This document shows positions 13,991-60,966 of a stretch of DNA of 64,000 nucleotides, piece by piece (positions within the stretch are counted from its first letter, which is position 1; every line of letters starts with the position of its first letter). The position numbers and the translations under genes are program-made. Under the pieces are notes generated by a model. It saw nothing but the letters and a program-made list of their open reading frames with translations, did no database searches and had not been told where the DNA came from. This stretch comes from Antedon mediterranea (Eukaryota > Echinodermata > Crinoidea > Comatulida > Antedonidae), in assembly GCF_964355755.1 (NCBI RefSeq), contig NC_092670.1:4923001-4987000 (forward strand). Direction: 5' to 3'.

Positions 13991-15108
13991 ATCAGAATAA
14001 AAAAATTAATGTTTAATTTACTATATGATTTTGGATCTATACTGTATCATACCATGGCAATCAAACAACAGTATCTTGTAGATATTAAAAGCCTTCAAAC
14101 AAAATTAGGATGCAACTGGAAAAAATTAATAAGTCGCAAATCGTGAAAAATTGTTCTAATAATAATTGTCATTGACACTGCATGATTATATAATTACGTG
14201 TATGAAATATAATATGAAATTGATTATACCATCACATCATGTTATAAATAAACTACTTTTTGGTACTAGTTAACGATGTGTATTAGTTGTTGATGCATAA
14301 ACATTGTGTGCTGTACTGATCATAAGACTGAATTCACATCTTATCGTCACGAAAGAAACACAAAATTGACGCGCGTGTCGAAACCGTGCTATTTTCATCG
14401 CGCTTTGTGCAGTGTGTTTAAGCTGATATTTCAAATAGTCGAAGATGTTTGGCGTAAAGAAGATTATTTTGATTTTGATTGAGAAAATATAATGTCCACC
14501 AAGAAACAACGCCTTTTTTTCAGAAAGGTCGCCCTATCAAAATAATGAGTTTCCCCATCGGGGCAGTACAAGGAGCGGTAATTTAACAGTGCGTAATAAC
14601 AATGGTCAGTAAAGCGTACTATTATGGTCAGCTTCTTTCTGGACATTGTTGCAAACCAAAAGTGGGCTTGGTGGGCGTGACGAGAACTTTCTGCCTTAGC
14701 CAGGTCTTAAATTAAAGTACACTTAACAAAAACCTTAAAGGGGTTACCAGTATATAGGAATCAGAATCGAAGTGAATTTAGGCCTACAGTCAACACAATG
14801 CCTACTATGATATTTTAGTTAAACTTCGGCCTATACATGCATTCACATCGTATCAGTATTAGTAATTTGTAATTGATCCAGTATACTAGTTAAGTTGTTT
14901 TAGAAAATTAGTAATTGAAGATTAAGTCGGAATGCGGGTCAACGTGTTTATATTAAGGCCAATTCACAAAGACCAGCAGTAACGGTAATACAAAATAGAA
15001 TCTATGTTATTCTTTATGACCATTTACACACAACCCGGAGCGGACGAGCTGTTTCCGAGTTACTAGTTTCTATATCATCCTTAAAAAGTCTTACTCTGTT
15101 TCTTGTAG
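13991..15108. other. sequence upstream of the first peptide exon
   Basis: No element is recognised. The stretch ends in a pyrimidine-rich splice acceptor (CTCTGTTTCTTGTAG, ending 15108) immediately before the coding exon. Confidence 0.4.
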
Positions 15109-15116
15109 ATATTACA

Positions 15117-17182
15117 ATGACAACAAGAAATACTTTGAAAATAATCACCTTCCTACTTATCGGGTGCTGTTGCTTAACTCAAAGTGTTCCCGTTCTTAAA
15201 TTTTCTGGTCAAATTTCATTGGAAGGTGATGAAGAGTCAGGTTTGGCGTTACCATGGATACTCATGTCTAAAATGATAGATTCAGACAGACCAATGAACA
15301 TAGATACAGATAACTCATCAGAATATTATTCAGGAGAACAGAATGATGTTGGTGAGTACAAGCATTTTTTTCCTTATTTTGATTCATGTATTTTTATTTC
15401 CTAACTACTCGAAAAACTGTATGGCAAATATAAAAGTGTGTGCGTCACATGTTTCTCGTGTATAATTATTGTTAAATTCTGTCTACACTATCAAACTAGT
15501 TTGACAAAAAAAGTTTGATGTCCCCAAATATGGTAGTGATAAATACAGTTTGATAGTGTAGACAGAGCGTTAAGTTCTGTCACACATTCTATCATAATAT
15601 TAATTACGTGTGACACATGAAACTTACAACAAATAGGCCAAACTCCATACATGGTAAACAACCGACCGACACTGGGTGATGAATAATCTTAAACCAAGCT
15701 GAAAACACCCGCATTTTTGTAACAATTCAACTAAACATTTTCACCAACCGAATTAGTTGTTGCAAACATTAATACATTCGGCATATTTGAGTCAATTATA
15801 GGAAAATTAGTAATGATATACTAAGAAGAAAGTAGTCTGGAAAACTAAAAGACTCCAACTAACCTAATGTAAAGCACTATACAATGATAAACAACCGACC
15901 GACACCGTCTGACAGATGAATAACCCGAAAAACAAGCCGAAAACACCCGAATGTCATCATTTTAACACCAATTCAACTAAAACTTTCCACCAACTAAAGA
16001 AAACGGGAAAAAAACAATAATTAATCACTATTATATTTGTATAGGAAGTAATAAAACTGAAATGTGTCAGTCACCAAGTGATTACTTTGAAGAAATCTCT
16101 ATTATTTGTAATAAATTGCAAATAAAACAACAAACAAAGTGGTTGGATTAACTTGATGGTTGTAATTCATCAAAGACAACAATAAAAGTCTTGGTTCATT
16201 TAAGGCTAAACAAAGTATTATGAATTTTCAATAGATTATTTTTTAAGAGCAATGATTATTCATATTATGAGTATTTAAATGGGCAATTTAGCCTGAAAGT
16301 CGTGACGCAGTAAATGTCGATGAGCGTTTGTACGCCCGACAACATTTGTTAGGTTTCACAAATTAACACTCTGTAGCCTAAATCGTAACCAGAGTTTTTC
16401 GGAATTACAGATAGATGCCATGTGTTGTTGTTTTTGGCTCAGATATATACTGTTTCGTATGTTTTTCAGCGTTTCCAACCCTCTTGAAACCATTCTAAGG
16501 CGTACCATGCGATACAATATCAAAATGTTGGCTACAACATACATATATGAAGCAGTTTAGGTCATTACCAGGTATTTTAATACTAAAAGAATTAGAGTGT
16601 TCCGTTAAAGCCCTAGACGTCTTCTGCGCCACCTACCGGTGGTTTCGGGAACATTGCGTGTGTCCATCCAGTGTCTGTGCGCGCGCATCGCTTCTTTATC
16701 TCAACTTTAAATATCAATGACGCAGATACATTTAGCACGCAATTTTACTTATAATATACGCTAAACCATTAACCACAGCCGTGAAAGGCACCGACAAAAA
16801 AATGCTTTTGCAAACGTAGTAGACGTATTAAATAAAACCTGAAGTCGGGTTCAAACATACACAGGATCATTCTCTACACAGCACGTTACTATATAAAGAT
16901 CACATCGCTAATTCATGCACAAATAATAATTATAAAATATTGTTTAATGTATTCAATATATTTCAATAAGAGCGAGTCGGTTAAAAACTTATTTGTGTGT
17001 TAATTTATCTAAAATAATGTCGTGGTTTATTCAATTGATTTCTAATAAGAATTAATATATTGTATATTTCAGGAGATATCGCAAAACGTGGAAACGGCAG
17101 GAGTGATCTAATGCGCTATCTTTACAGCGGTAAGATAGGTAAGGCTGCATCAACTATGGGACGCCAACCTGGCAGACGTTAA
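15117..17182 (+). CDS. secreted neuropeptide precursor, PDF-like (gene 1)
   Basis: Two coding exons: 15109-15351 (ATG at 15117) and 17073-17182 (stop TAA at 17180), joined by a phase-1 GT-AG intron (GTTG|GTGAGT ... TATTTCAG|GAGAT). The predicted 114-residue precursor has a signal peptide (residues 1 to about 22, core IITFLLIGCCCL). An acidic spacer to residue 80 follows (GDEESG, DSDRP, DTDNSSE), then the dibasic site K83-R84. Next is a 27-residue peptide (85-111, GNGRSDLMRYLYSG...ASTMGRQP) and a terminal Gly-Arg-Arg that predicts cleavage and C-terminal amidation. The core pattern, acidic-L-M-x-x-L then hydrophobic-G-K, resembles PDF-type peptides such as nematode and arthropod PDFs, ligands of a class B GPCR. 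Precursor status is well supported. PDF assignment is my inference; CRH- or other secretin-class ligands are alternatives. The ATG follows the acceptor by 8 bases. Confidence 0.8.
15475..15569. mobile_element. MITE in gene 1 intron, TSD TTA
   Basis: The ends AATTCTGTCTACACTATCAA and TTGATAGTGTAGACAGAGCG are inverted, flanked by TTA at 15472-15474 and 15570-15572. A 3-bp TTA/TAA duplication is characteristic of PIF/Harbinger-mobilised elements. Same family as 6566-6722 and 26400-26527. Confidence 0.75.
15640..15995. repeat. tandem duplication (about 245-bp period) in gene 1 intron
   Basis: 15640-15745 and 15885-15995 share the strings AAACAACCGACCGACAC, GATGAATAA, GCTGAAAACACCCG/GCCGAAAACACCCG and CAATTCAACTAAA in the same order. 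The offset is about 245 bp, so this is a diverged direct duplication. Confidence 0.7.
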
Positions 17183-18907
17183 CGTTTGATATGCACATTG
17201 TGTTGAGGAGACGGTAATTTATCGGAGTTTCGTAGTTTTGTTTGGAAACCAAGCCTACTCTATCGACTGACCAGGAAACCGAGTTGTTTTGGCGCCAATA
17301 ATTGGGCAATAGCATGGTCAAAATAAGAAACGATAAGAGTTGATTGGATTAAATCTACAAAGATAAATCGGTAGAGTAAAGAGCAATCATTCTGGACGTA
17401 ATCAGGGGATTAATAATTATTTGTTCGTTCACCCCGCCTCTCCAGTGGCAGTTCGGAGACATTTTGTTGCCACAGACTCAATCAAACTTGGTTTAAGCAT
17501 AATAAGAGATATTATTTTTAACTAAAAACTGTAAATAAATAAATAAATGATCGTATAAACAAATAAATATGAACAGATGAAAATCAGTAATTTACATATT
17601 ATTATGATTTAAGTATCCACATGATTCTAGACGGCGATTCGATTTAGTATCGGTAAAAAGATAAATATTTTGGCCTAAATGGCGTTTCATAATTTATTTC
17701 GGTTATGGCTGGCTGGCGTACAGATAGAAAGAGGAAAATCTATGGAACGCCAGCCGCGCTAAAAACTGATTGGTGGATCCTATCGGTTGATATTTCAATT
17801 GCTAAATGTTGGTACTTAAGCTGAATTAAAAACATCGAGAAACAAACTGGTGGACAAGAACATCAAAATGACAATAACTAGAAACTTGGAACAAGTTTAC
17901 CAAACGGAACATGGAATGGAACACTCGGCGATGTAACGAAACGTGACCTAATCAATCTATTTGTTTCAGTTTCGCTTAATCACGTAAGCATGGTTGCCAT
18001 ACTTTCAAAATAATAATTAAAATGGTTGCGTAATTAATGCAATATGCATAGTGGTTGCACATCATCATTCAGTGTAGGTCAATCAATAAATAAATTATGG
18101 AATAATAATGTATTAACTTCCATTATTTAAATCATATTTAATAATCAACAATGATAAATGACGTAATTTCTCACCAAGTTTGATAGCAGATTAATCGTGT
18201 TGGACCGCCTAAACTTCTAAAACTCTCTAAATTATAGAATCGTGTTGAGACTTGATATTGCTTTGTTTTGATCTACAAGACTCCTTTCTGTTTTAATTTT
18301 GTGTGTGTTTAATAAAACAAATGCTTAAATATACAATGTCTTTGAGTGTTCTAACATCTAAATATAGCATTACACTAATGGCATCCAAATAAGGACACGC
18401 TATGAATTATGTAATAGTTTGTCGGTTACTCAGTGCTGATTTAGCACTAACGACAAGGGTAGTCTAATAACTGGAGCGGAATTTTCAAACGTTTCTACAA
18501 CAAGTCGTATTACTGCATCTCGAAACTCGATCATATTAATGCCAATTCTCATTTCTGTGTAATATGAAATAGATACAACAATTGCAGTTCATTATTTATT
18601 CACCATTAGCGACCATCGCTTACAGTCCTAACGAAGGACTAACCCATATTATTGTAGGTTGAGTTTTGATAGGTATGTGCTTATTTATTTTCTGTAGGCC
18701 TGACAATACAGAAATACACATACCAACATACACAGTTTATAGCACCGGAAGATATATTAATCCCATACACATTGTGTATTATAATGGATATTGTCCTATT
18801 AGTTAACCTCTACCTAATTCTTGTCTGGCACTATTGCTAACATTGCTGCTTCTTATTCTTATTATTATATCCACCACATAGCTCGTACTCTCTTAACTGA
18901 TTAATAA
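17183..18907. other. 3' region of gene 1 and intergenic sequence
   Basis: Overlapping AATAAA signals at 17533-17545 (AAATAAATAAATAAATG) are the best candidate polyadenylation site for gene 1, about 350 bp after its stop codon. A GCTGGCGT...ACGCCAGC inverted pair occurs near 17710-17752. Beyond this nothing is recognised. Confidence 0.4.
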
Positions 18908-18925
18908 CCCCCCCCCCCCCCCCCC
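18908..18925. repeat. poly-C tract, 18 bases
   Basis: An uninterrupted run of 18 C residues, unusual in AT-rich DNA. A shorter C-rich run lies at 25555-25573, and G-runs at 22306. Length may be unreliable in the assembly. Confidence 0.9.
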
Positions 18926-19509
18926 GCCCTCCTCTGCTAGACATCAACAAATCCACATTTCAGACACCTCACAAACATAACCCACTTACTAAGAGCATCA
19001 CAACAAGTTTACAATCAGTCACATTATAAACTAATTTATTTATAGCATACTTCCAACATGGCACGACAATACTGCTAAACACAAACACAATCATACATAA
19101 TTCGGTTTAAATATTTAATATAATATGCCTAAAACAAAAATATAGTTCAATAATTTATTCGGACAATTCAATCAATATTTCCACGTTAAATGCCCACTGC
19201 GGCGTAGCATTCTCAACAGTGTCTCAACGTTCACTTGGTCCAATGTCCGCTATATGTTCACTGTTTTCTATTACACTGGACTTAAGCTCCTCTGACCATC
19301 AATGTAACACAACATGATATGCATTTTCTAGAGTAAGGTTTAAGGTTTAGCGTGAGAGTACATGATCAAATACACAGTAGTATACAAATAAATAGTATAC
19401 TGTACTTTTGTAGTAATCAGAAACTCTCGTCACTGTCTTAACTCTTACATTTCTCCATCAGTCAAAAACACAATCCTTCTTTCCATTTTCCCTGCAACAA
19501 TACTCTGCT

Positions 19510-20140
19510 TCACTCTGAGTTGAATCGCTTTAGTATAGATATAGCGGCAATAAGTGAGACAAGAATACCTGACGAATGATCCCTAAATGAGCAATCATAT
19601 GGACATTTTTGATAAAGGTAAATCTAAAGATGATGTTAGAAATCACGGAATAAGATTTGCAATCAAGAACTGCCTCCTATGTAAACTCCCAGATGTCCAA
19701 AATTCTATCAATGAAAGCCTCTTAAAACTTTCTTTAAGCCACAATCGACATACAAAGATCATTGTTCATATGCCCCAAACATGTTGAGCTTAGATGAGAG
19801 AAAGGAACAGTTCTATGATAAACTTGACTCAGTACTACAACATATGTCAACTAATGACAAGATAATTCTTCTGGGGGAAAAAATATTTGGAAGACATGGT
19901 GTCGGAAAGATGACTGACAATGGCATATTAATACAGTAACTGTGTGCAAAGCACGAACTTATTGACTAAACACGGTATGCAGGTAAGCAAACATAAGTAT
20001 AAACTCCATAGATGAATGAACTCTCGGTCGAGGCATCGGCATGATTAGTTGTGTCCGGCATAGTACGGAAATTCAGCATTAATGATGTTCTTATTAGAGA
20101 GTGTGTGGTGCTGAGTTGGGTGGACCACTAAATGTCTTGT
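19510..20140 (+). pseudogene. non-LTR retrotransposon endonuclease domain, decayed
   Basis: Pieces in different plus-strand frames align in order to an APE-type endonuclease of a retrotransposon ORF2. They are I-A-A-I-S-E-T-R-I-P-D-E near 19540, GKSKDDVRNHGIRFAIKNC near 19617, the segment with NSINESLLKLSL at 19702 onward, then EQFYDKLDSVLQH near 19807, NDKIILLG near 19855 and VRKFSINDVLIRE near 20070, followed by W-x-D-H. The ETR and (I/V)N-x-R-L/S-LLKL signatures belong to the craniofacial-development-protein-2-like endonuclease family of annotated TE proteins. In-frame stops, frameshifts and a deletion after ILLG show it is dead. Confidence 0.7.
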
Positions 20141-20141
20141 T

Positions 20142-21974
20142 AATTGCTCAACCCTCTACTTAAAGATTCACCCAAATTATTGTCTTTGTTTATTTGTAAG
20201 GATGATCAAATTCTCATTATTTTAACATTTTCTTTTTAATAATAAGAAAGTAAAAATAACTAGAGATAATATGTTCAAAAGAACATAAACCCAGTCAGTG
20301 GAATGTGTGACCTTTGACCCCTACGCTTTAACAACTCCGTGAATTTAATTACTGATCATTCGAGTTAAAATAACTATAGTGAGACATTTAATGAACAGGC
20401 AAACTGCCTTAAAATGTGACATGTTTCGAGAAACTATTCTCATCATCGGTATAGAAAACAACGCCTAAAGTACTTATATTACCAATAGGACAGGTTGTAT
20501 GTAAATGAAGAAGTAATTCGCATGATAAAACAACAAGGAACGGAAAGGAATTACTGATCAAGTTTGAATATGCGAATATACTTCTGTATGCCAGAAGCAG
20601 ATAGATGGCGGTGTTCATGATTTTCATATTATACACCGTATGGTTGTCAAAAGTTAAACATCAACATGAAAATAGTAAAGTTGTTGATGGTATTAAGATA
20701 TTATGTCAATACAACAATTTTTTTTTTATTTATTCGGTGTATAAAAATATATTAAAAACCGAAAGTCAAGGACTGAAATGAATTAGTTAAAATTGCTATA
20801 AAAATAGAAACATCTAATTTAACATTTAATTAAAATTAAATATCGTACCATGAAATTAGAAAACATACATGAATAAAAAACCTCAAAACATTCACTTATT
20901 AGATATCTAAAAAATACTGGGGTACCAAATTACAACAAGGAACCAAACAAGGCCCATAGATTAACGGGAAAAAAGAGCTAGTGGTGCCTATTAATTATAT
21001 CCACCATGATCTCTTTTCCTAACTTTCCTTTATTTGGATATGCAACATGCACAACAGATATGCGAATATAGCCTACTGCGAAATGGCCTATTCAAAGTCA
21101 TCAAGAGCAATACCAAGTAGTATTAAAGCAAAACTCATCAATACCAGCTTCGTGGGACTGGAAACATTATTCGTATGGATAATTCTAAAATACCAAGTGT
21201 TATATTGAGCTGAAACAAGGCAAACAAAATAGAGAAAGACCACGAAAATGATATAAAGATACATTAAGATGATCCATCAATATGATTTAGCATCACCTCA
21301 ATCAACGTTTATCTAGTAAATAATAATAAAGAAATAATAAACCAATTAGTTAAAAAAGTTATATTCCTAATAATGAAGATTGAATAGTGCAATATCCGCA
21401 ATAGCGCTCATGGCGCTGTTGACTTAGATGTTGGACACCTTTCCAACAGTATTCTTCTCCCCTTAGGGCCACGCCATGTCGTCGGCTGCCAACTACGGCG
21501 CCATCACGTCTGTCCACGACAGTGGCTGCATTTGCTAGTAATCCCCTACTTTTCGAAGAAGGTTCTTTAAAGTGCATTATTGTGTACACTAGACCTGCGA
21601 ATTATATTCTTTATCCGGGAACCAGAACCATCGAGAGTCTCGAACCCTCTAAGATAGAAACATATACGACGGTTTATTTTTACAAATATACACGAATTTC
21701 GTATCTATTTTACAAATACAGATTTTCTATAATATCTTTATACAATTTCCCAAAGCATTGAATACTAATTATAGGGTAGCCGATCTGCGAACATTGGCCG
21801 AAACGTCCCATTGATCGAAACGTCCTTCTACAATCTACGATGCTCAAGTTTACCCTAATTATGATTCCGGGAGTAATCGTCTACACTTACTATAATCATA
21901 TTTCAACTTTAAAGTTAATGCTGATTATTCTGTCAGGAGCTGACATCGCCATCTACCGGCGTTGACGTATGAAT
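20142..21974. other. intergenic stretch between two direct repeats
   Basis: The direct-repeat copy at 20584-20641 lies in this stretch. A relatively GC-rich patch at 21395-21550 (AGCGCTCATGGCGCT palindrome, then a 76-codon minus-strand frame rich in Arg and Gly) is compositionally unlike its neighbours and may be transposon-derived. I do not recognise the frame. Confidence 0.3.
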
Positions 21975-22032
21975 GCCAGCTGCAGATAGATGGCGGTGTT
22001 CATGATTTTCATAGTATACGCCGTATACAATT
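20584..22032. repeat. direct repeat pair of about 50 bp, 1.39 kb apart
   Basis: 20589-20641 and 21983-22030 share GCAGATAGATGGCGGTGTTC and ATGATTTTCATA, then TATACxCCGTAT, nearly identical and in the same orientation. They could be the ends of an element of about 1.4 kb or two solo copies of a short repeat. The sequence between them is not recognisable as LTR-type coding sequence. Confidence 0.6.
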
Positions 22033-22305
22033 GAAATAATATAATATTACCACGACAAACGTATTATTGTTTATGTTCTGTTTAAAAAATACTTCTAGGT
22101 ATATATGGAAGGTTGCAATTAAATTTAAAGGTCTAATGTAATTCTAAAAAACCAAAAAGATTGTGTAGTCTAAGAAATTGGAGACGGAAGAGGCTAAAGA
22201 TAATACTGCCATCTATAAATTTGTTTTAAAAGGAAATACTTATAGAGGGCAGTATTATTTTATCACCAAACTTGCTTTGCAAATTTCAAACCGACATTTT
22301 TTTTT

Positions 22306-22383
22306 GGGGGGGGGGGGGGGGATTAAAATATTCAATAAAATAGTATGCACTGGTCAATTATTATTATTATTATTATTATTATT
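22306..22383. repeat. poly-G run followed by (TTA)n microsatellite
   Basis: A 16-base G run at 22306-22321 is followed by (TTA)n at about 22357-22383. Confidence 0.9.
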
Positions 22384-25300
22384 TTTAAAATAAAAAATAA
22401 AAAAACAGTCAATGTTTTGTAGATCTAAGAGCATGAAGTGAAATGTAAATTATGTATAAAATATAATGTATTTACATGTACAGTATCCAAATAATGGTTT
22501 ATTATTAGTGACGAATTAGCAAATTACACTTGTTTTATGTGCTTTTACAGGCAACATCAGGAAGATTTAAAATTTGAAGGGTAATTTCGAAAATGTAATG
22601 AATCAACTAATCTAAACGTATAAGTAACCAGCATATTACAATTTACCTAATGTTAATCAACCATCATTATATAAAAATTAGTCTATTATTGTGCATTACA
22701 ACAATAAGGTAATTTTAGTAAAAGAATGATCTAAAATCAGTTAATGTTTGCAAATGTACTTTTACAAGTCGTTAACGCCAATATAAGTCTGATTTAACGT
22801 AAAGCTCAGGTACAGGCCTAGCTGAATTTTAAATATAATATTTGGTTAATTGTACATAAATAAAATATTTGTAACAGAAATCAAGACAAAAAAACATGAA
22901 TTTCCCTTAATATGGTCAAATACAAAATTTGGCAAAATTCTGCCATAAAAACCAGGAAGACTTTTTTCAGTAGTTAGGTAGTTTAACCTAATGTCTAACA
23001 TCTCTGGTGACTCCATAGAAGGTGAAAAAATTTAGATAATTTTGGCTATAGCATGAAAATAAAAATCTGAAGTTGAATAAAAATACCAGAAATGTAAAAT
23101 TCAAGTTATATTACCTATATTTAGTCATCTGACCACACCGTTTACTTTTCATAGCTTTTTTAAAATGCCTCTCTATTTACAAAACTTGTGTACAAAAGAA
23201 TAGAGATTTTACTGTGTAATTTGAACTATTCCCCAACTGATAAGAAAGTCCTTATTTTAAACAAGCTCGTGTAACACAAAAATAAAATCCCAAAAATTAT
23301 GAAACAGAGGGGAAACTATAGATCGATAATTATTGGAATGTATGATCAATAGAAGTTTTTTGTCCGCACCTGGCCTTTTAAGGGACTTAGGATTCAGAAG
23401 TTAAACGGTTTGGTTGGCTGTGTGTTTTTTAAAACTTTTTTCGATAAATAAAAGATAGTGTCAGACCAGGGAGGAATAAAATTATACCTCCTTCCCTGGT
23501 CAGAAGTTACAAAAACGGATATATTAACTTATGAAAATTGTTTAAAGAAGGATCTCTTGTTATTGTAAAATAATTGAAAAATAAGAAAAAAAAACAATAA
23601 AAAGGCAATTTAAGAAAAGAAAGTAAAACAAACGGGTATTTACGAGTGGAGGTGTTTTTTGTCATGATATTTGATATAAACACAGATCCCTGGTATTGGT
23701 AGTCAAGCAATCTTAACCCCAAATCTACAATGCTTATAACCGACGACAACATTAATTTGCAGAGCAGGCTTAGTAAATTTCACATTCAATTATGCTTTGC
23801 ATCAATCACATGACTTTTGGATAAGTGACATATTCATTTAATCATTTACAGACTGTAGTTTAGGAGTTCACAGTAACTTATTCTTTTTTTTATCAGTCAC
23901 ATAACCGTTTTAGAAAAATAAGTAACCGATAGTTTAGGACACAATATAAATAAGGCACATTTGGCATACCATAGACGCGACCGATTCGAAACGCGACCGA
24001 TTTCAAACGCGACCGAAATGATCTTTAACCCAATCATCTGAAACTTAAATACTTTTTCTGGATCTATGTTTGCCTTGTTGAATAGTAGTGGCTTACCACA
24101 TTACTTTTCATTACATTCACTGATAATACATGCAATTTACTTATCTTAAATCTAAATGTATTTTAATGATAAGTTAATAGCCTATATCTTTAGGAAACTC
24201 CGATTGAATACCAATATCACTAGTTCTTAAAACTCACAAGAGAACAGTGTTAATGAATAGATAATTCTGATGAATAAATTGGCGCCTTTTCGACGCATGC
24301 TATTATGTCGTCTAATTTCACGCCTGAATCACAGCAGCTTCAATTGTAATCATATTAAACAAACTGGTATGTTTTAATATAGGAAATCACTGTTTCAAAT
24401 TGTTTCAGCGTTGGTTTTAAAGTTTATTATAGGTTAACATTCATTATTGGTTAATTTGAAGAAAAAAACTAATTAAAACGATTGCTTTAGCATAGGATAA
24501 GATACCGGATAATCCAGAGATTAAATAGTATTTGAGATGAATTATTTAATCATGGTATATAACATATCTCTTAAGCTTCTTCCAATATCTGCTGTTTTCC
24601 TCATCATCAACATAACAAAAATGTAATGATTGTCCATGGAATAAGGTATTTGATGTGACGTTGACGATATCGTAAGCTATATTAACATCAACTATTATTA
24701 TATTGAAAAGAAACGTCAAATAAATCTCCTGTTTCTTTGTCTACGAAAGATGTACCCTGAATGCAAGAGAAAACTTGAAGCTACGTGGCGTTAACATGGG
24801 AGATGGAAATAACTACTAACATTATGACAATAATGGTTTAGAGATTACATGGGAACAATAAATATCAGTTCTTAATATAAGTTTTAATTACAAATTAGTA
24901 AGATAACCTACTTTTGCTAAAATAGATTCTTCAAACTCGACGTCAGTTTCTTATTGTGTGTGGTTAATCACGCGTCCAGCGTACACATCCAATTAATTGT
25001 CTCTGTTATTGTAGACCTAGGCCTCCTTTCTTATACTAAGACGTCGTACGTACATGTCCATTATTTAGGGTGAAATGATAATATATAGAAAGAAAAATGT
25101 AGAAAATGGATTTTCCACAAAAACTAATAAATACTGTGATTAGGCCTACCACGTTACGATATGGAGTTTTGTTTGATTCTGTTTTCTTTTAAATTTTGTA
25201 TACAGAATAATACATCAAGAAGTTGGAATTGGAAACAACACTGATTTTATTTAAATGTATGTTTTACTGCATACTTTTTATAAAGACAGTGAGAAATATC

Positions 25301-26149
25301 TGTTTTGTAATGAAATTTCACTACAAATCACGTTTCCTTACAGTATATGGGATATTACAAGACACATGCTAGGACGTTGATTGGTAATTACGCATCGCGT
25401 GCAGTTGAACGAATTTTTGTAAACGTGTTGATACTTTTCTGTTACGCGAGGCCTGTGTATAACACGAGGCCTGTAAATAAATGTTCTATACTTCTAATTC
25501 TAGTCTAAGAAGGATAGATGGCAATTTGTCCCCTTTCGGGTTGTGATAACTCAACCCCCCCCCCCCCACCCCCGCCTTCTGCTACCGGACTATTCCTGTT
25601 GTCCAAAATAGGAGCGCTGCCTATGAATGGAATGCTTACTTGCAAGTATACTATAACAACATCTTTACAATGTTATAAAATATGGAGAAGTATGAAATGA
25701 TGAACGGATGCTTCTATTTAAAATATTGTTTCAATTAAAATCAGATAATTAGTAAAACATTCTTATTAACAATATTATCCTTGAGAATAAGTAAGGTAAA
25801 TACTCGTTGATTAACAATCAGCTTACAATCTATGGTTTGCTGAACACAATTATAAAGTGCGTAGCTCAGGGACGGCAAGTTTACGTTTTCTGCGCATTCA
25901 AAGTAATCTTTTATCATCTGAATACGGATATCCGTTTTGCTGTAAACAAGTACTCACGACTCTTATAGATAAACATTTCCTATCTACACAACAAATAATA
26001 TTACCTTATTATTTGTACATGAAATAATTAGGCCTACATCGATAAATCATGCTTATCATTCACAATAATAATCAAATGAAGGTATTGAACTTTATTATGC
26101 AATATGTACCAAGATAAGAAATATAATTATGCAACCATTTGAAGATGAT
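22384..26149. other. long intergenic stretch
   Basis: Apart from the imperfect hairpin at 23464-23501 and the C-rich run at 25555-25573 I recognise nothing. Base composition is uniformly AT-rich, and no open frame has ATG start, length and protein-like composition together. Confidence 0.35.
23464..23501. repeat. short imperfect hairpin GACCAGGGA...TCCCTGGTC
   Basis: GACCAGGGAGGAATA pairs with TACCTCCTTCCCTGGTC across a short AT loop, with a small offset. It could be a MITE centre or a chance hairpin. Confidence 0.5.
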
Positions 26150-26310
26150 ATTCATTCATTCATTTCCTCGGATAGTAATTCCATACAAAAATCATACAAA
26201 AAACAAAAACAAAAAGAGCAAAAATGTCACCAAGAAATTAACAATATAAACAACTTCCACAAAACCAACCCTACAATATCCTAAAAATATTAATTTGCAT
26301 CAGCGATGAT
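26150..26310 (-). mobile_element. retroposon 3' end with (GAAT)n tail, minus strand
   Basis: The reverse complement matches 13795-13990, including AGGATATTGTAGG, TTGGTTTTGTGGAAG and the terminal GAATGAATGAA tail (seen as TTCATTCATTC at 26152). It is a second copy of the same 3' end in opposite orientation. Confidence 0.65.
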
Positions 26311-26399
26311 GTATCTGTTGGTGAAAATGTTACCCATTTTTATCACAACTGGAAAATGCAACCATAAACAGGAACGGCATTAGTAAATGTTTATAACAA

Positions 26400-26527
26400 T
26401 CGGTCTACACTATCAAGTTTGACAAAAACAAATGTGTTGTGCCCAAATATACGGTACCGTAGTAATATGACGTCATCAAGTCAATTTATGGGCACATTCT
26501 TTGTCATATAAAGTTTGATAGTGAGAA
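26400..26527. mobile_element. MITE, third copy of GTCTACACTATCAA family
   Basis: The left end is CGGTCTACACTATCAAG and the right end TTGATAGTGAGAAC, the right being eroded. The interior motif GTGCCCAAATA is shared with the copy at 6566-6722 (as its complement). Confidence 0.6.
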
Positions 26528-27469
26528 CTAACCAACTCTATTGCGCATGCGTGCAACTAAAGGGTAGTTACGCCGTAAAATGCCTAGGGTTTTAATTAAA
26601 AAGTCGCTATCCAATATTATTTGAAAATTACCATGAAAATCTTAATGATGGTAGGACGTCTGTCTAATTATTAATCAGAGGGTTCCTGGTTAGAATCTTG
26701 GTCTGGACGATTAATGATTTTCAAATACTGATTTACGACAATCAACAAATTTATTGCAAATGAACATAACCTTTAACTAGTAAATTGTTTATAACTAATA
26801 AAATGGAAATGTATACAGTAATTTCCTGCCATAAATATGTTTTCAGGTAAGAAGGTTAATTGTGCAAATACTGTTAAGTTACCGTATTAATTATGTTTTG
26901 ATATAAAATATAGGCCTATGTATAAAAAATACATAATAACAAATGTTTCTTCACATGACAATGAGAGACAAGACATTTGTCCTATAAATATCACTATAAT
27001 CAGATTTTAATGTTATGTGTAACAACATTTATAAATGTAATGTATGAATCTGGGAAATACAAAGTTTTCGTTTAGTGCTCATTGAAAATTTTACCATTTT
27101 AAACAAACGATCCGATCCTATACACCCAACCTGCCCATTTCGCCAAACTAACCAGAATAAATCACGGTTAATCTCTCTGTATATAATTACTATAAAAACG
27201 TTTCTTTTCTCTGAATTGCAGAGAACTTGAAGATGTTCCCGTCAAATTACTGTCAACCTCTCACTACTGTAGTTATAATAATGACCTGTCGTCAAAAAGA
27301 TGCCCATAAACATCTGAATAACTGATTTATCATTACTAAACGTCATGTGCACATCTACAGATATCCATCTGCTTACCAAGATTGGTAGAAATTCTGTAGA
27401 AGGATATTAATGACATTCATAGGGCGGATCACACAATCAGTATTTAATATTATGTATTATGAATCTGAC
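26528..27469. other. intergenic stretch
   Basis: Possible old tRNA-like SINE head around 26655-26710 (GGTAGGACGTCTGTC ... GGTTCCTGGTTAGAATC). Otherwise nothing is recognised. Confidence 0.3.
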
Positions 27470-27640
27470 GTGTGACACCAAGGATAACCCACTAAGTTCT
27501 TCGGTAATTGTTTACGATGGGGTTCTTCTGGTGTTTAATTGGGTAGTACACCAGGAGGCTGAGAGTGTACGGCTCGTTGGAGCACACGAAGAGGAACCGA
27601 TGAGATTCGAACCCTGGACCACCAAAGGAAACTATAATAT
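27470..27640 (-). mobile_element. tRNA-derived SINE, minus strand
   Basis: The minus strand has the B box GGTTCGAATCTCATC (complement of 27601-27615), preceded by TGGTGGTCCAG. It is followed by CGTACACTCTCAGCCTCCTG and a body running to about 27480. This is a typical SINE head-to-body order. The A box is weak. Confidence 0.5.
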
Positions 27641-28511
27641 TTCACGGATAAACGTACAACATAGTAGCTACATACCAAATGGAAACATTTAAAAATAAAA
27701 TTCGTATTAAGATTAAAAATCAATCGATGGAGAAATCGATGGAGAAGAAGAAAAAAGAACAAAAATATACGAGCAAATTAAGAAGGAAGATTAAAAGGGG
27801 TAATGAGTAGAGTCAAGCGATCAAACAAAGACTAGAAGAAGGAAAAGGTGAATAAGTAGAATAAAATAATAATAACAGACATGAGATACTTTAGTAGACA
27901 AAATGATGAGAAGCAAAATGTGAAAAAACAAACAGAAAATATAGACTTAATAGAAGCGGAAAAAAATTATGTAGAAGAAACAATAAGACGAACATCAGAA
28001 ATATAGTAACACTAAAACTAAATAGCAAGGAATACACTAACATGATATTAACATGCATAATGTAAGTAGTTAATGTGTGACATAAACAAAACGGCTGAAT
28101 AAAATATATATCTTAAAATAATCACTCTCGAAGTGAAATTTTCTTTTTGACTGATGTTATTTGGAAAACTTTTAAAGAGTCTAATCAAGGCATTCTATCC
28201 CGGAATTATCATTTAAAAAAACGTTTTTATATGTAATTCGCAATTTATTTATTGCATTATCGATAAGGCATACAATCTTCCCAAGGCAGTGATTCATTTT
28301 TATTATTTTTGCTAATAAAGTCGAATTTTGATTAGATTGGTTTTGGTGTGGATTAATCTATTACACGTGTTATTTTTTTAATCGAATACAATATATTTAA
28401 TATAAACTAAGATCGTCGGCTTTGTACATTTCACAACTAATTTCATATGGTAATGGCATGTAGATGAGCCCCATTAGTTATCGTGTCTTAGAAGTGATCT
28501 GGGGATTGCAT

Positions 28512-28727
28512 TTAATTTGAAAACCATAAGTCAACAAAGATTGTGATGAATATTGCTATCAGCAAGTATATGAAACGATGCCAACGATTTGTTACTGGAT
28601 ATGTGTCTGCTAAGAAGTTTTTTTGATACGCAGCATCTGATTGGTCACTATCAGCAATAGTTATCATCCAATGGGGATTTGTTTCTAGCGTTGGTGTTGA
28701 TGGTAGTGGATAACTCCCACGGGTTTT
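28512..28727 (-). CDS. possible terminal exon of an unrecognised membrane protein
   Basis: A 72-74 codon open stretch ends in TAA at 28512. Composition is protein-like: Pro/Thr-rich start (YPLPSTPTLETNP), acidic middle, then a 17-18 residue hydrophobic segment (FIYLLIAIFITIFVDLWF) right before the C terminus, as in tail-anchored proteins. There is no ATG at its head (the frame opens at TTG). Read as an exon it could start after the weak acceptor TTACTTTGAG. I do not recognise a family and chance is quite possible. Confidence 0.2.
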   Translation of the reverse strand, partial: KTRGSYPLPSTPTLETNPHWMITIADSDQSDAAYQKNFLADTYPVTNRWHRFIYLLIAIFITIFVDLWFSN

Positions 28728-28840
28728 TCGTCTCAAAGTAATTAGTCTTCACATACAGTCGTCTCAGAAGGATTACAATGACGTGTCCCGATGATAATTA
28801 ACGCAAGGGTCAGAGAATACTCAGGGGATTGGCTGAATTC

Positions 28841-28950
28841 GCTTAAATACAGCACCAGTTGATGTGTTAGGCAATCAATAGAGTTCTAGTCAACAAGCGA
28901 AACAGACGAAAAGTCAGCCCAAGGAAATAACAAGTAAATCAACAAAAAAG
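28841..28950 (+). promoter_or_regulatory. candidate promoter and 5'UTR exon of gene 2
   Basis: A TATA-like CTTAAATA at 28843-28850 lies about 100 bp before a consensus donor, AAAAG|GTAAGT, at 28950/28951. The next good acceptor, TTTCATTACAG, ends at 29718, eight bases before the gene 2 ATG. A noncoding first exon of roughly 28870-28950 spliced to 29719 is therefore a coherent model. Confidence 0.45.
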
Positions 28951-29726
28951 GTAAGTGGCATAACTGTTTGTTTAAAGTGGCATCTTTCAAACGTAGATTA
29001 ACACCCTAGCATTTCTTGAATTACAGAAAAACTATTAGCATACGGTAAAAATTAAAAAATAAGCCTACAGTATAAAATTCAGGGCTTTTTCAAAACAAAG
29101 TCTAGTTATAGTATAGTGCTTTATGTTAACTCATAATAATAAACCGCTTTCTTGTGTTGCTTTCATTTTTAAAAGGATCCTCATCCGATTAACTATAAGC
29201 TTACGGAGCAACAGAAATATCTTAGATATCTAAAATATTAATTACTTCATAAAAGCGCGGTTGTAAAAAGAATTTTTATTGACTATTCTAGTGACTTCTT
29301 AAAACTAATTGAATTCGGTCTTAATTTATAGGCCTTCATTTGATCATTTATAGTATCCTTCTTAATAACTTTGCTTCAAGTAATTTATTAATGCAATATT
29401 AATTTAGAAACGTGAGATAAGTAGTATAGAATAGGAAAAAATAAATGCTCTGAATTGCATACAGGCGATATTACAACAAGTAGGTTTCAGTCACTAACCT
29501 CGTGTTACTCTTCTTTTTTTTACAAAAACCTGAACGTGTAATAAAATCATGAGATTTAAATCTTTTGCAGTTTAACTAATATTTAACGATGTCTGATAAT
29601 AATAAATAATAATAACCAATCAATTGGCAAGAAAACTCAGACGTGTATAGTGCTTTTTATTGAATGAATGATACAAATTTATTTAATAATTCCAGCAATA
29701 TTCTGGGTTTCATTACAGAAAAGAAA

Positions 29727-32626
29727 ATGAAGAACATTGTTGCGTCATGCGTAGCTGTCGTGCTAGTACTAGCTGTAGTAATGCCTGTACCATCAAAAGC
29801 ACAAACCACAGAAGATGTGACAGTAGATGAAATCTTCGCACGTATAGAAGACGATCTTTCAACGCTCTACTGCATCTATTACGGAGGATGCGGAAACGAC
29901 GGTAAACATTTTTTTTTTTATAAACATAATTTTTCTTTCTTAATATTTACACACACGCATCGTATAATAGCACAATTGTGAGAAGGGTTTGAACGCGTTC
30001 CACGCGCGCGTCTGTCTCGTGATACCAACGAGGCAGGAACTAGATCAACACAAACAGGAAACAAAATAGATAGTATAGGTTTATAGGCCTAACCAATATT
30101 ACATTAGCAATTATTATTATTACCGATAGGTCATTAATAGTACGCAGTGACCGCTATTATCCCTTTTTTAGCATAAACTTAGTACATGAGATCAGCAAGG
30201 CATGTTCCCGATAATTAGCTTTCGAAATGCATGACATGTATTTCTGTAGAAATTCACATTATTAGCTTAGTTTTATTGGCCTATTATCGACATAATTACG
30301 GATATTTTAGACTATGATCTTTATCCTCATTTGCTTTACGTCAATATTGACATTCGTTAAATGTTTACAAAAATATAAATAGGCCAAGTAGTTTGGAAAA
30401 AACAATATAGTGTATTCACTGAATGCTGTTGTGTTGAGTTGAGAGGTATGGGTTGGGGCGGTATATGAATTTTAAAGTCACTCCTCAATTTACCACAGAA
30501 CTTTCAAAAGATTGGAATACAGATATACTGTACAATTGTGGTAATGTACCTATTGTTACTCAATTCTTCCCTATGCTCATCTGCATTGCTGATAATATAA
30601 AAATATCTGTTCTAACTAATAGCCATATTATTAGTAGCCATCTACTATCAATAGCTAATAGCAAACTACCTACCAATGCGTCATTTACAAAATACATAAA
30701 TAACAATAATGTATAGTACATTATTACAAAAAAAAAGATTATATAAATTGGCTAAGTCGATACTAGGCAGAATATCATTTATTAATATATTAAAAAAAAA
30801 AAAATCAACTTACCTTAACCTTCCATTAGATTTAGTTAAGTTTCTTCTAGTTTAAATTGAATTGAATTTCGTCAGTCCATGGTAATGTTATACCATGGAG
30901 AAATAAACAAATTCTACATGGTTATACGCACAAGTAATGATTATCTTGTATTTACCAACCTTCAAAATAATTGCACATTCGGTGTATTTTCTGAAATTAA
31001 ATTAAGGACCAAAGTCGAATTATAAACTAATTAGTACGGTTCAGATATGAATACTATTGTTGGATTACTTTAATACGATTATCTATCTATTTAGTCTTCT
31101 CCACGTCTTTTGAATAATTACAGGTCACGAAAATAAATTATTCGACTCATTCATTATTGAAACATTAATTTTGATAAAATGTTTCATCAAATCAAGGACA
31201 GTAAATAACTAAAGTTCACAATGCAAACGATAGAATATTTTGTTTATAATATAATTACTATACATTAAATATCATGATGCCCTAAAGAAATTTAAAACAA
31301 AACTGTATACTGTTCTTTATTTGCCGTGAAACGATGTTTTAAAATGTTCTCTAAGACTTTGGATAAAACCAAATTTGAACAGATTTTGCATCCATATTTT
31401 TGCATCCATATTTTTGAATACCATATTATGGTATTCATTAATATAGGCCTACTGTAGGTGTGCTTTGAGACATTACAAAATGACGTAACAATATTATATT
31501 TTAAAAGCACGGTGTATCTCACATGGCCAATGATTTCACCCCTCATTTTTTTAAATCAGTTACATTTAAACGTGTTTTTTCTGTAAACGTAAACGGTTCA
31601 ATGAAATTAAATGAATAAGAGGAGGGTATTATGAATACATCTAACCATGACTCTTTCTGGAAGTTTCGAGTTAATTTACATTATCGCAATAAAAAGGAAA
31701 TTACAGGATAAATACGAATATTGATTACCGTTATTAACGAAAAACCCCGATGCAAAATCTGTTCAAATTTGGTTTTATCCAAAGTCTTAGAGAACATTTT
31801 AAAACATCGTTTCACGGCAAATAAAGAACAGTATACAGTTTTGTTTTAAATTTCTTTAGGGCATCATGATATTTAATGTATAGTAATTAGTCGGTAATGC
31901 ACTCAATTCAGAATACATGTATTAATTAAATGGTAGTGATTTATTAAGGTCTTGGCACGGTAATATTAAGGTAGTAGGAATTGTATTCATGCTTTGATAA
32001 TTATCTAGCAATCTACCGTTATAGGATTATGCCTATTTTTTTAATTAAAAATTAATCTCTTTAGCATTTTGTTTTTCTTTTTTTGTTGTGATAGATTTAC
32101 AATCATGGTCTAACTATATAGAATTGCATTTGTTTTAGTCAAGCATATTTCGTTTAACAATGTAGGCCTATATTATCTCTTCTTATACTTTTTGTTTATA
32201 CAAATATTATCATTTCTTTACACCATTTTGTATACTGTTTTAATTTGAAGAAAATAAATGTTACTTTGAATTGAATTGAATTAAATTTAACCAAATTTGT
32301 GTTTATTACTCTATCAATTTTTTTTTTATAAAATGCAAATTTGTCTGGCTGTTTTACTTCATCATTTTGCAATTATCCATTCATTTATTACCTCAATTAG
32401 TACTTTAATACTCACAGCATTGACATTTTTCTACATTTGGATTTATACACAACTCTACAACACACAACAGACACAGAAACTTTAAATTATGAACGGTTCT
32501 GTGTATATGTATGGACCTATATATTAGATAATTACAGGTCCATGTTATTTGTAGTCGCTTACTTTCTTAACGTTTTTTAGTCGCGTGGAAGCGACTCTAT
32601 AGTTCACTATGTCGGTCGGTTGGTCG

Positions 32627-32657
<31 letters not shown>

Positions 32658-34042
32658 GGTCTGTCTGTCGGTCTATCTGTCTGTCGGTCTGTCGGTCCGG
32701 TATCACTATGCGTTTTATCGCTTTCTGACCTTATCTTGATATCAGTTTAATCTAGCTAGGTCAATTTTTCACAGTATATTCCTTATGGCCAGGAATCAAT
32801 GTGGTTATGTTTTCACGGTGCGCAATAAAAAATTACGCGGTCTACGCACGATTTAACGAAATCACGTTTGTAATCATATCTTCACAACCATGAATCACAA
32901 TTAAATCAAATTTGGTACTCATAAATTTCAGGGCATAAATCATATGGCAATACAATTACGTGCGTAGCGCATGTAACGCATGCGTACGCGCGCTTAAAAT
33001 TTTCAAAATTTATTTTCGATGAAATAAGAGTACGTTTCAGGCAATTTAAAGCGTTTACAAAATTGCCATGAGTGCGCATATTTTTGCGCGCGCACTGCGC
33101 GTTAAATGTTTTTGCGCACTCTTTTTGCCCGATTTCTGTTTTCTTGACTTACTTTTCAACTCGAAATTACGTTATACGAGCACGTCAAAAGTGACAGGCT
33201 ACGCACGTGTAAATTAAAAAAATATAAATGTTTTTAAACATTTCAACATTTTTAAACATGTTCAGTAATTTCGGTCAGTATAGTTCACTATGTCGGTCGG
33301 TCGTTCTGTCTGTCTGTCGGTCTGTCTGTCGGTCCGGTATCACTATGCATTGTAGCACGCGACTTAATGGCTGTTGGCCTTGTTTTATATAATGTACCGT
33401 AGCTACTGTATTACCATTATCATTTATCAAATGCTTTTTGTGATAATAATTAAGAAAAACTATCAACTATCTTATCCTTCATCATTGTTTTTTATCATCA
33501 ATCTATAAAAAACTTTTCACATCTTGCCTTTTTTCTCCTTCCCCCCCCCCCTCAAATCATCTAGTTATAATACATATTATTATGTCTATTATTACTTACT
33601 ATGTTCAATTCAGTGTTCCCTTTTATAAACGGCTGTGCTAACAACAACAAAAATATTTCTGCAGCAATTAAATAATTAGATTAATGTACCTAGATTTAGG
33701 CCTATATCGTATTTAAACGAACCATCTCTAGATAAAGACTGTTTTCCGCCTTTCTATACTACTAGTAGGAAGGAGTACCGCTAATACATAATCTTCTATA
33801 GGATGTTCTTTTTGTTCTATACTTAAACCTTTATTATCCAATCCTAAATAAATGATCTGTTTTAAGAAATGTTAGATATTTTTCTGAATGAAAAATGAAT
33901 TTAGATAATGTTTTTGATTGTTCTTACAGATTCAATGGCAAAGAGAGCACGTATGGGAATTGCATCACTTGATAACCTTCGTAGCAGACAGAGTTTCAAA
34001 GGATTGAAAAATAAAATTCTAGGAAGCGCTGGCAAACACTGA
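29727..34042 (+). CDS. secreted neuropeptide precursor, sister of gene 1 (gene 2)
   Basis: Coding exons 29727-29901 and 33930-34042 (stop TGA at 34040), phase-1 intron (ACG|GTAAAC ... TTCTTACAG|ATTC). The predicted 95-residue precursor has a signal peptide (1 to about 25, core VVLVLAVVMPV) and an acidic spacer (TTEDVTVDE, IEDD) with two cysteines (C49, C55). Then come NDD-SMA-K-R (KR at 63-64) and the C-terminal peptide ARMGIASLDNLRSR...LGSA followed by G-K-H-stop. Gene architecture, intron phase and the N-D-x(2,4)-A-K-R junction match gene 1, so I read them as tandem paralogues 12.5 kb apart. Core alignment to gene 1 is weak (L-x-x-L ... K-G-L-K). No canonical GKR/GRR amidation site is present; amidation via Gly-Lys is possible. 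PDF-type assignment is weaker here than for gene 1. Confidence 0.75.
31252..31889. repeat. perfect 141-bp inverted repeat, 356-bp spacer
   Basis: 31252-31392 is the exact reverse complement of 31749-31889 as far as I can compare base by base; outer ends TAATTACTATACATT and inner ends GATTTTGCATC. It lies inside the gene 2 intron and would form a long stem in the pre-mRNA. It has no obvious target duplication, so inverted duplication is as likely as a transposon. Confidence 0.9.
32577..33395. mobile_element. TIR-like element with (GTCTGTCG)n subterminal minisatellites
   Basis: The left end (AGTCGCGTGGAAGCGACTC, then CTATAGTTCACTATGTCGGT) and right end (GTAGCACGCGACT) are inverted through AGTCGCGTG/CACGCGACT. 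A GTCTGTCTGTCGGT minisatellite lies just inside each end (32625-32700 and 33290-33340), with CTATAGTTCACTATGTCGGT repeated directly before both. The GC-richer interior 32824-33262 recurs at 50611-51008. No open frame is seen. Transposon class is not assigned. Confidence 0.7.
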
Positions 34043-35185: not shown

Positions 35186-38029
35186 TTATCATTATAATGT
35201 TGTTCTTTTTTAGGTTTTTACAAGCATCTATATGTCATCATTAACATTATGGATCATCCGACTGTCTAATTACACACAAGCTTCAATCTGGCCGTTTTAC
35301 TTATCTTTGCCTTTATAAATGTGTATCTCTATTCGGGTTGTCAAAACTAACAAATCAACGCAAAATTGAACACTTATTCGCCAAACAGAACAATACGAGC
35401 ATAAAGAAGAGTTAAAATATAATACCGATGACGTCATAAAAACCTCCATTTTTGTTATGGACCAAAGAAAAATAATTATAGATGTGCAGACGATACAGAT
35501 TTTGCCACCCGTAATGTTGTATTTTGCATCGCTTGTAGCCTATCTCTAATTTCTCCCGCTGAATTTGTTGCAAACCCTTTAAGTTGTCTTAATTAAACGC
35601 TACTTAAATGTAAACATATCCCTTGCTTTATCGAAGTAGATTTTAGTAGTAGAAACCATATTATCCCATGATAGCGAAAAAAGAGTTAATTATTGTAGAA
35701 TGTAATACACATTGTATGCACAGTAAGAACAATCCTTCAGATAGATAAAAAGAACCATGATTCTAGAAAGGTAGATCAGATTTATAACTATTGTGTTTAT
35801 CATAAGTGTCCTTGTTATACTAAGACCTAATTCACTGTTTGTATCATGTTAAAATTTGTATATGAATTTATGGCCAGGCATTCAGATATAGTAAACGTGT
35901 GTATCCAAAAGATCGCATGCCGGCTTATTTATTATACGTTCTTTGTGCCTTCGGATGCAGCCCATAAAGATTTTATTTAGTAGTCCAATTAAATTGCATA
36001 ATGTAAAAGTAATTGTAATAAACACATGAAAATAACATTTTCTTTGTATCATGTTACTGTTTTTAGTAGTTATTGTTATCAATGTTTACGGGGGAGGATT
36101 GAGAATACAATTTAATAGTGTCGTAAGATACAGATTAAAAATATAGGCTTATAATTATAAACAATCGAAAGGAAATCTTTGCTTCTTTTAGTATCATTTC
36201 ACGACAGTAGGTTTGTGACGACCGAGGACTGACGACCAACCGAAGTCGACGTATTGCTGTAAACTCTTCACCAGAATGGGACAATGACTACGTTCTCTGG
36301 GTATAAATAAAGATTTTATCCATGAACTTGGTCGTGTGTGTCACTGTATAACTATAGCATACGTGACGTAATGTTACTTCTGTTTATTCAAATTGTTCAA
36401 ACATAACACAGACAAATGTAAGTGAAAAAGTGAAAGATTCGTTTCAGCAATAACGTTTAAAAATGTAAAATAAATATGCAGAGTAAGCAAATAATTTGTA
36501 ACAATTTGAGCCAAAACAAAATGATTTGAAATGATTTAAAGATCACTAAATTTTAAACATTGTGCGTAGATGGCGTTGATCGGTTTGTGGGCTTTTATTC
36601 TAGACGAAGATGAATGATAGTTAGAATGTATTAGCTTAATTGGCAATATTGATATTATCCCACACTGTAGTGTTGAACTGGAAATGGGAACTATTCTCTT
36701 TAGATTTGTATGTTGGATGCATATGTACATGAGGCACACGGCTATTTGCCATTATTATATAATGACACATGACTTGATTAAAATAAAGCTTCCTTATCAT
36801 TAACCTGTACGTTAAAATTCGTTAGCAGAACCTAACATTAACGTAGACTTGAATGGAGCGCGTGCCCCACACGTACTCCCTTCTGTCAACCCGGACCTAT
36901 ATTATGGAACTTTATCCTAAATACCATAATATAATAAATTGTTTTAAAACGTAATTTTCCATTCCATTCTTTTTTGGCAATTTTTGCGTTCTATACATAA
37001 TGGCGGCCGAAATAAACACGATTCTTGTTTTGGCATGCTATTGGGTGTTCTATTCCCGGCGGCATAAATAAACGACAGACAGTAGTACAAGGCACCCGTG
37101 ACTGGCTTAGTACCGTACCTAAGCCCATGTTTTATAACCCTAATAAACGAAGGCATATCAAAATGTTCGGCAGTTGAGCTCACCTCATAAACGTACTGGC
37201 GCTAGTTTCCGTTTCGCACCTGTTTTTATTTTCGACTTTCATTCGACTCCAAACTTGTTAAGTAAGTTATCGTGAATACCACACCTTAGAATTGGGCCTC
37301 ATAAGTACTTTATAAAGAAGAATCACATACAAATCACAAATAAATCCTTTATATTGATGATTTTACAGACGTGTTTCTCGCATACTGTTCGCGAATTTTG
37401 CATACTCGAATCAATATTTTCTCTTCTATGGAGTGCCAAAAGAGCAATAATAGTAAATGGTTAAAAACTGAGTGGAATGCGTCTAATTTTAATGCGTCTA
37501 TTATTGAAATATAAATCTAACACAGCATTTAACACAACATATTATTTTTCCAGGATTACCCAGATAAAAGAAAAACTTGTTTTACAATAATAAGAGTTGG
37601 AGAATTTAGGTTGTAGTTGAAAGTAGTATTCGTACTTGCATTTAGATACAATGACATAAGTATTGTTATTATACTTTATAAACAAATAGTAAGAAGGAAA
37701 ATAACTGACGTTACAATAACCCTGCAACAACCCATGGTTAAATACAGTATTATCGGTACCTAGAACAAGGAACAGACCACAGCAGTCTTTCTTGTATATA
37801 ATTTCACTATTGTAAACTAAATCATGTTTATAGTTTAGAAGCAATTAATAGAAAAGGTCAATAGTATTTGAATAGATGTGTATTTGAATATATCATGCAA
37901 CCACTTTATAATAAATAAAGCAATTTCCTTTTCTGCTGAAAACCAAACCAAACCTATACTTTCAATTACTATACAAACAATTTTCTTATTCTGAATACCG
38001 TAATTCAATAATTTAACATTTTTATTTAA
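35186..38029. other. intergenic stretch
   Basis: No gene is recognised. The open frames at 35882-36082, 36536-36739, 36944-37183 and 37542-37844 on the minus strand lack domains, signal peptides or splice context and are taken as chance. Confidence 0.35.
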
Positions 38030-50205: not shown

Positions 50206-50214
50206 TTTGATAAA

Positions 50215-50260
50215 CGATAACTGAGACCCGACAAATCAATGATATAATATATATCTTTCT
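50215..50260 (-). promoter_or_regulatory. conserved AT-box upstream of zinc-finger ORFs
   Basis: A TATAATATATAT run at 50242-50254 lies about 40 bp upstream of the unit A ATG. The same block, including the string CTGAGACCCGACAAATCAATG, is kept at the same spacing upstream of the unit C frame (about 60675-60710). It is a candidate core promoter. Confidence 0.35.
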
Positions 50261-60659: not shown

Positions 60660-60966
60660 TTTGAAATACGATAACTGAGACCCGACAAATCAATGATATA
60701 ATATATATCTTTCTTTTTTGTTAACGTGGTTGTAAAAGTGGTAATCCTCTCTGGTCCGCAAAATATCAGCTGTACGGACGTGTGCCGCTTTTATTTAATT
60801 AGGGAGGGGCACACTTTTAAACATGCTCAAGTAGCCGTTTTTGTTATGTTAAATAGCTGATGTTAAATATTGAAGACTATGTACTATTATTATATTTGGG
60901 AGGTTTTTTTTGTTAAATAAATAATACAAAACGGTTTGGCAACTCGGTTTGATTCATAATATCTAT

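Follow-up and report, generated by a model that had tools for sequence, protein, structure and literature searches.

A 64-kb window of the Antedon mediterranea genome (C1:4923001-4987000; the whole stretch of DNA analysed here) contains two small genes for secreted peptides, 12.5 kb apart on the plus strand, as a sequence-only reading of this DNA had proposed. We consider it likely that the upstream gene (gene 1) encodes a feather-star neuropeptide precursor, most likely PCNP11 (predicted crinoid neuropeptide precursor 11 of A. mediterranea, PMC9793003), and that the downstream gene (gene 2) encodes a separate secreted precursor.

Structure of the two genes

Both gene models spliced and translated as that reading had described them, each with a signal peptide and spacer in one exon, a phase-1 intron, AKR and a single C-terminal peptide. 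The reading frames, splice signals and processing motifs were observed directly in the DNA, at these positions:

15107..15108, plus strand: gene 1, possible acceptor AG of an intron in the 5'-untranslated region (5'-UTR), TTTCTTGTAG / ATATTACA-ATG; predicted, acceptor score 4.29
15117..15351, plus strand: gene 1, coding exon 1 with signal peptide (residues 1-23) and acidic spacer, from the translation
15352..17072, plus strand: gene 1, phase-1 intron of 1721 nt, GT..AG (donor GTGAGT, acceptor TTTCAG), from splice scores
17073..17182, plus strand: gene 1, coding exon 2 with DIAKR, peptide, GRR and stop (TAA, 17180-17182), from the translation
17090..17170, plus strand: gene 1, predicted mature peptide GNGRSDLMRYLYSGKIGKAASTMGRQP-amide, residues 85-111, length of 27 checked
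29717..29718, plus strand: gene 2, possible acceptor AG of a 5'-UTR intron, TTTCATTACAG / AAAAGAAA-ATG; predicted, score 1.42
29727..29901, plus strand: gene 2, coding exon 1 with signal peptide (residues 1-25) and acidic spacer with two Cys, from the translation and signal-peptide strength
29902..33929, plus strand: gene 2, phase-1 intron of 4028 nt containing a 150-nt inverted repeat, from the sequence
33930..34042, plus strand: gene 2, coding exon 2 with SMAKR, 31-residue tail and stop TGA, from the translation
33947..34039, plus strand: gene 2, predicted peptide ARMGIASLDNLRSRQSFKGLKNKILGSAGKH of 31 residues (residues 65-95), by a putative cleavage site

Splicing of 15117-15351 to 17073-17182 gave a 114-residue gene 1 precursor, in which a signal peptide, an acidic spacer (12 D/E against 3 K/R across 59 residues), AKR, a 27-residue peptide, Gly-Arg-Arg and a stop followed one another; the 27-mer and its GRR-stop, as claimed earlier, were borne out by the translation. 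The splice scores were modest (donor 4.9, acceptor 1.05). With a signal peptide, a convertase site, an amidation signal and one short peptide, the predicted product carried the marks of a neuropeptide precursor, and gene 1 is in our view a convincing candidate for a neuropeptide precursor gene with an amidation tail. From established processing rules, we infer cleavage at KR and at GRR. The precursor would enter the secretory pathway and lose its signal peptide. A prohormone convertase would make two cuts, one following AKR and one at RR; a carboxypeptidase would remove the arginines, and PAM would convert the exposed glycine to a C-terminal amide. The resulting amidated 27-mer would act on some G-protein-coupled receptor.

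Joining 29727-29901 to 33930-34042 gave a gene 2 precursor of 95 residues, with a signal peptide and a dibasic site preceding a short C-terminal peptide. Its splice scores were also modest (donor 1.6, weak; acceptor 2.7, fair), and an AATAAA occurred at 34175, 133 nt 3' of the stop. The tail, S-A-G-K-H-stop, lacked the standard amidation signal, amidation being common but not obligatory in neuropeptides. At KRAR, cleavage could also take place two residues further downstream. Gene 2 reads as a candidate precursor outside any family placement, probably a separate small secreted one with a single, unamidated peptide at its C terminus. Residues 48-55 of its spacer (YCIYYGGC), just 5' of the intron, include Cys 49 and Cys 55, and a bond between them might close a small disulphide loop within the propeptide.

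Each intron also had a repeat of its own. At 15479-15565 in gene 1, a hairpin-like palindrome was seen by eye, and a 31-nt stretch overlapping its left arm was repeated at 26386 with 77% identity. The inverted repeat in gene 2 (31252-31401 and 31740-31889; 150-nt arms, 97% complementary, 338 nt spacing) looks like a non-autonomous DNA transposon.

Comparison of the gene models with chance

Both strands of the window were scanned for two kinds of exon, signal-peptide exons having a phase-1 donor and phase-1 second exons with an early dibasic site, using splice matrices that may be inexact in places. Stricter initial splice cut-offs recovered gene 1 exon 1 but neither exon 2 nor gene 2 exon 1. 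They were relaxed post hoc to let both genes pass and kept at identical values in the random controls, so that window and controls were treated alike. The scan then found two distinct signal-peptide ATGs with a phase-1 donor, those of gene 1 and gene 2 only, and 24 exon-2 candidates (13 on the plus and 11 on the minus strand), the sole amidated one being that of gene 1.

In 300 Markov-1 strands of 64 kb, amidated exon-2 candidates averaged 0.047 per strand and were paired with a signal-peptide exon in none (0/300), while 6% of the strands had at least two signal-peptide ATGs. Twelve 10-kb control pieces from the same genome, scanned on both strands, yielded three signal-peptide ATGs (two sharing one frame) and 46 exon-2 candidates, one of them amidated and lying in a piece without a signal-peptide exon. 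When ATG frames of at least 58 codons were taken from 150 random strands, a signal peptide matching that of gene 1 (hydrophobicity 2.78) occurred 0.35 times per strand and one as hydrophobic as that of gene 2 (3.64) in 0/150, and phase-1 exons with an early dibasic site, of the gene 2 type, were expected about 10 times per 64-kb strand. Because of these chance rates, gene 1 draws its support from exon 2 and gene 2 from exon 1. Both genes are probably real, on these different grounds, and exon 2 of gene 2 is the weakest part of the gene models.

An acceptor-like AG stood exactly 8 nt 5' of the ATG in both genes. Among 1274 ATGs on the plus strand of the window, 58 had an acceptor at least as strong as the weaker of these two at 3-15 nt, and four, both genes included, had it at exactly 8 nt; a 5'-UTR intron is therefore plausible for both genes. 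A scan of 30 kb beyond each end of the window found no amidated exon-2 candidate and a single weak signal-peptide candidate, on the minus strand of the downstream flank (hydrophobicity 2.28); the survey of non-amidated exon-2 candidates in these flanks covered those with KR within the first 12 residues.

An alternative that we hold to be unlikely, though worth weighing, is that gene 1 is real and gene 2 a chance join, for example between a frame downstream and an unrelated exon from a secreted or membrane protein. The abundance of dibasic phase-1 exon-2 frames given above, the weak donor and the missing amidation tail would suit such a join, as would the failure of Pfam and whole-genome protein searches to find a relative of gene 2. 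It is opposed by the strength of the signal peptide, which random strands did not reproduce, by the fair acceptor, by AKR standing where it is expected and by the AATAAA past the stop.

Gene 1 and the published Antedon peptides

AmedPCNP11 was described as a 27-residue, C-terminally amidated neuropeptide located in the C-terminal region of its precursor (PMC9793003). The gene 1 peptide had exactly 27 residues before GRR-stop and fitted this description in length, amidation and position, indicating that gene 1 is most likely the published PCNP11 of Antedon, as judged by these three properties. The authors saw no sign that PCNP2-20 are homologous to precursors from other echinoderms or other phyla (PMC9793003); gene 1 is thus most likely a known orphan crinoid neuropeptide. 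The A. mediterranea sequences of that study derive from a transcriptome, so gene 1 would be expressed if it is PCNP11, and what is added here would most likely be its locus and intron. A literature search for the name AmedPCNP11 returned only PMC9793003.

The genome (354 Mb in 18 contigs) was also searched for other published Antedon peptides. The AmedPCNP4 peptide was encoded exactly at C3:159182-159211, inside DKRGLFPTGGMDPLGASYFTGKR; its 30-base pattern had one match in the genome and the reversed pattern none. Kisspeptin AmKP1.1 with its amidation glycine was encoded at C7:8165062 (17/17 letters), preceded by LRIKKKPK and followed by a second PF-amide peptide; LRIKKKPK was placed ahead of AmKP1.1 in PMC9793003 as well. 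These two exact matches point to a genome of Antedon or of a feather star very close to it. The PCNP4 locus (C3:157682-160711, minus strand) encoded the published peptide a single time, followed by 16 repeats of the form [AGS]FPGSGGMDTLGxxYFxG-KR; AmedPCNP4 was described as a single peptide (PMC9793003).

Several observations weigh against the identification of gene 1 as PCNP11 and of gene 2 as its separate neighbour. The agreement with PCNP11 is one of length, amidation and position, and gene 2 matches none of the PCNP descriptions in the available part of PMC9793003. The published A. mediterranea PCNP15 (a 20-residue query) and the tail pattern of the calcitonin AmCT were unmatched in the genome, and no vasopressin-type peptide was seen in the 3-kb neurophysin locus. 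These last three absences could be explained by introns or by species differences.

Relationship of the two genes and peptide families

The two genes had been taken for a paralogous pair of unusual common design. Their mature peptides were not alignable above shuffles (p 0.62), and neither exon 2 with the junction residues (p 0.46) nor the whole precursors (p 0.079) did better. Whole-genome protein searches with each precursor and each exon 2 returned only the genes themselves; the first step of this search is insensitive, so distant copies may be missed. The design proved less special than claimed. Echinoderm SALMFamide genes have introns before the start codon and, in phase 0, after the signal-peptide exon (PMC9793003). 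Judged by eye from its letters, the kisspeptin exon of this genome seems to start with a phase-1 acceptor (ACAG/AT), like that of gene 2, and the PCNP4 exon in phase 0. Given the kisspeptin junction and the SALMFamide layout, the common phase-1 junction is weak evidence of paralogy; the AG 8 nt before both ATGs is a small point slightly in its favour. On these comparisons, paralogy of gene 1 and gene 2 is unproven.

A further idea, that gene 1 encodes a calcitonin/DH31-type peptide which lacks cysteine and, like insect DH31, ends in an amidated proline, appears very unlikely. It was attractive because the gene 1 peptide ends in a predicted proline amide, and its last 12 residues scored 17 against DH31 and calcitonin sequences, some possibly inexact (shuffle p 0.007, natural-sequence p 0.002). 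The p value rose to 0.059 when the terminal proline was fixed in the shuffles, and window lengths of 6, 8, 10, 14 and 16 gave p 0.08-0.90. Vertebrate calcitonin alone gave p 0.59, and p was 0.13 in a gapped local alignment. Two echinoderm tails, FGASGP and the crinoid calcitonin tail FGSSGP, each scored -1. The idea arose after the peptide had been seen, and crinoids already have a known calcitonin precursor, which carries two Cys (PMC9793003). Gene 1 was not accepted as DH31-like, the similarity being marginal and mostly gone once the terminal proline is discounted.

Equally hard to credit is the broader proposal that both genes are the missing class B (PDF-/DH31-like) ligands of crinoids, no longer recognizable by sequence; an ancestral precursor with two peptides would have become, or been assembled from, two linked one-peptide genes. 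The genome does have class B receptor exons: there were at least six HRM exons (five on C1), and 7tm_2 matches numbered at least 160, other receptor kinds among them. Unclassified, these matches say nothing about the ligand of gene 1 or gene 2. In a sea cucumber, receptors of both the calcitonin type and the PDF type respond to calcitonin-type peptide (PMC12638048).

The sequence-only reading had gone further and called both products likely PDF-type peptides, that is, linked paralogous ligands of a class B receptor. Such a pair might correspond in crinoids to the two-peptide PDF precursor of other echinoderms. We find this reading very improbable. The receptor exons just described and the like layouts (AG 8 nt before ATG, signal peptide and acidic spacer, phase-1 intron, AKR and one peptide) speak for it. 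So does peptide size: each echinoderm PDF precursor gives rise to a pair of peptides 29-35 residues long, only one described with an amidation glycine (PMC4772807, PMC6586643), so that the idea is compatible in length and amidation with an amidated 27-mer and an unamidated 31-mer, which come near that range. A PDF-type precursor was listed for a brittle star (PMC5627052).

The peptides were compared with seven protostome PDF peptides, some possibly inexact; ungapped and core-profile tests used 1000 shuffles and 1000 natural 31-mers. Gene 1 gave no PDF signal, with shuffle p 0.24-0.64 (gapped 0.49, ungapped 0.64, PDF-core profile 0.24) and natural-background p 0.17-0.37 (0.37 ungapped, 0.17 profile), while six of the seven true PDFs, tested ungapped against the others, gave p <=0.02. 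This positive control left out comparisons among the arthropod PDFs and between the two PDF-1 peptides of C. elegans, but included that of C. elegans PDF-2 with PDF-1. The seventh, cerebrin, gave 0.18, showing that a diverged PDF can fail the ungapped test. Gene 2 had a slight PDF-like core (gapped shuffle p 0.23; ungapped 0.13 and profile 0.09; p 0.03 in both tests against natural 31-mers), its best ungapped stretch being GLKNKILG against GMINSILG; given how many tests were made, this signal does not hold up.

Pfam found no match for the gene 1 precursor or peptide up to E 10, PDH included, although few matches above about 0.1 get past its filters, and only DUF6964 for the gene 2 peptide (E 0.22, chance level). 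The PDH model had no match in the whole genome and none in control genomes either, hence is uninformative. Against CRH, VIP/glucagon, PTH, NPY and a mixed control set, neither peptide fell below p 0.08. AlphaFold models of the single sequences showed the peptides partly as helix at low confidence and were given no weight (mean predicted local distance difference test 56.3 and 56.1, predicted template-modelling score 0.23 and 0.32). The dissimilar mature peptides and a layout not special to these two genes also count against a PDF pair, and caution has been urged on deuterostome PDFs as such (PMC7235175). Comparison with the protostome peptides therefore does not support membership of the PDF family. 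We return to gene 1 as an orphan feather-star precursor, most likely PCNP11, beside a second candidate.

Other features of the window lay downstream of both genes. C2H2 zinc-finger arrays with ECEHCGKKF units occupied the minus strand at 49180-50235, 59405-59971 and 59946-60689, the first confirmed by Pfam, and a retroelement reverse-transcriptase frame (RVT_1, E 1.9e-26) lay on the same strand at 61441-62904. A repeat array at 38017-38988 had several frames open on both strands, one reading SEYLYKPPSS; its Extensin_1 match was under the cut-off and probably compositional.

Significance and comparison with known systems

Among living echinoderms, crinoids are sister to all the others. The locus of an orphan amidated 27-mer, with an adjoining second candidate, supplies concrete peptides for feather-star receptors. 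In the part available, the first comprehensive survey of crinoid neuropeptides lists neither a PDF-type nor a CRH-type precursor (PMC9793003); the words 'pigment', 'corticotropin' and 'CRH' are absent from its main text, as available, and 'PDF' occurs once. If the two products were PDF ligands after all, they would help to settle the reality of deuterostome PDF signalling, on which caution was urged (PMC7235175).

Insect DH31 has a C-terminal proline amide and is free of cysteine. Gene 1 resembles the insect DH31/calcitonin-type peptides in its predicted C-terminal proline amide and, with DH31, in the absence of cysteine. Echinoderm PDF precursors (ArPDFP, AjPDFP1a and AjPDFP1b; 104, 133 and 111 residues; PMC4772807, PMC6586643) are similarly small to those here (114 and 95 residues), and peptides of similar length lie at dibasic sites in both; compared by description only, they differ in having two peptides per precursor, whereas gene 1 and gene 2 have one each. 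AmedPCNP11 and gene 1, again compared by description only, share a C-terminal 27-mer, amidated in the one and predicted to be so in the other, and, as far as the PCNP4 and AmKP1.1 peptides can tell, the genus; gene structure and a neighbouring gene, as given here for gene 1, are not described for AmedPCNP11 in the available part of PMC9793003.

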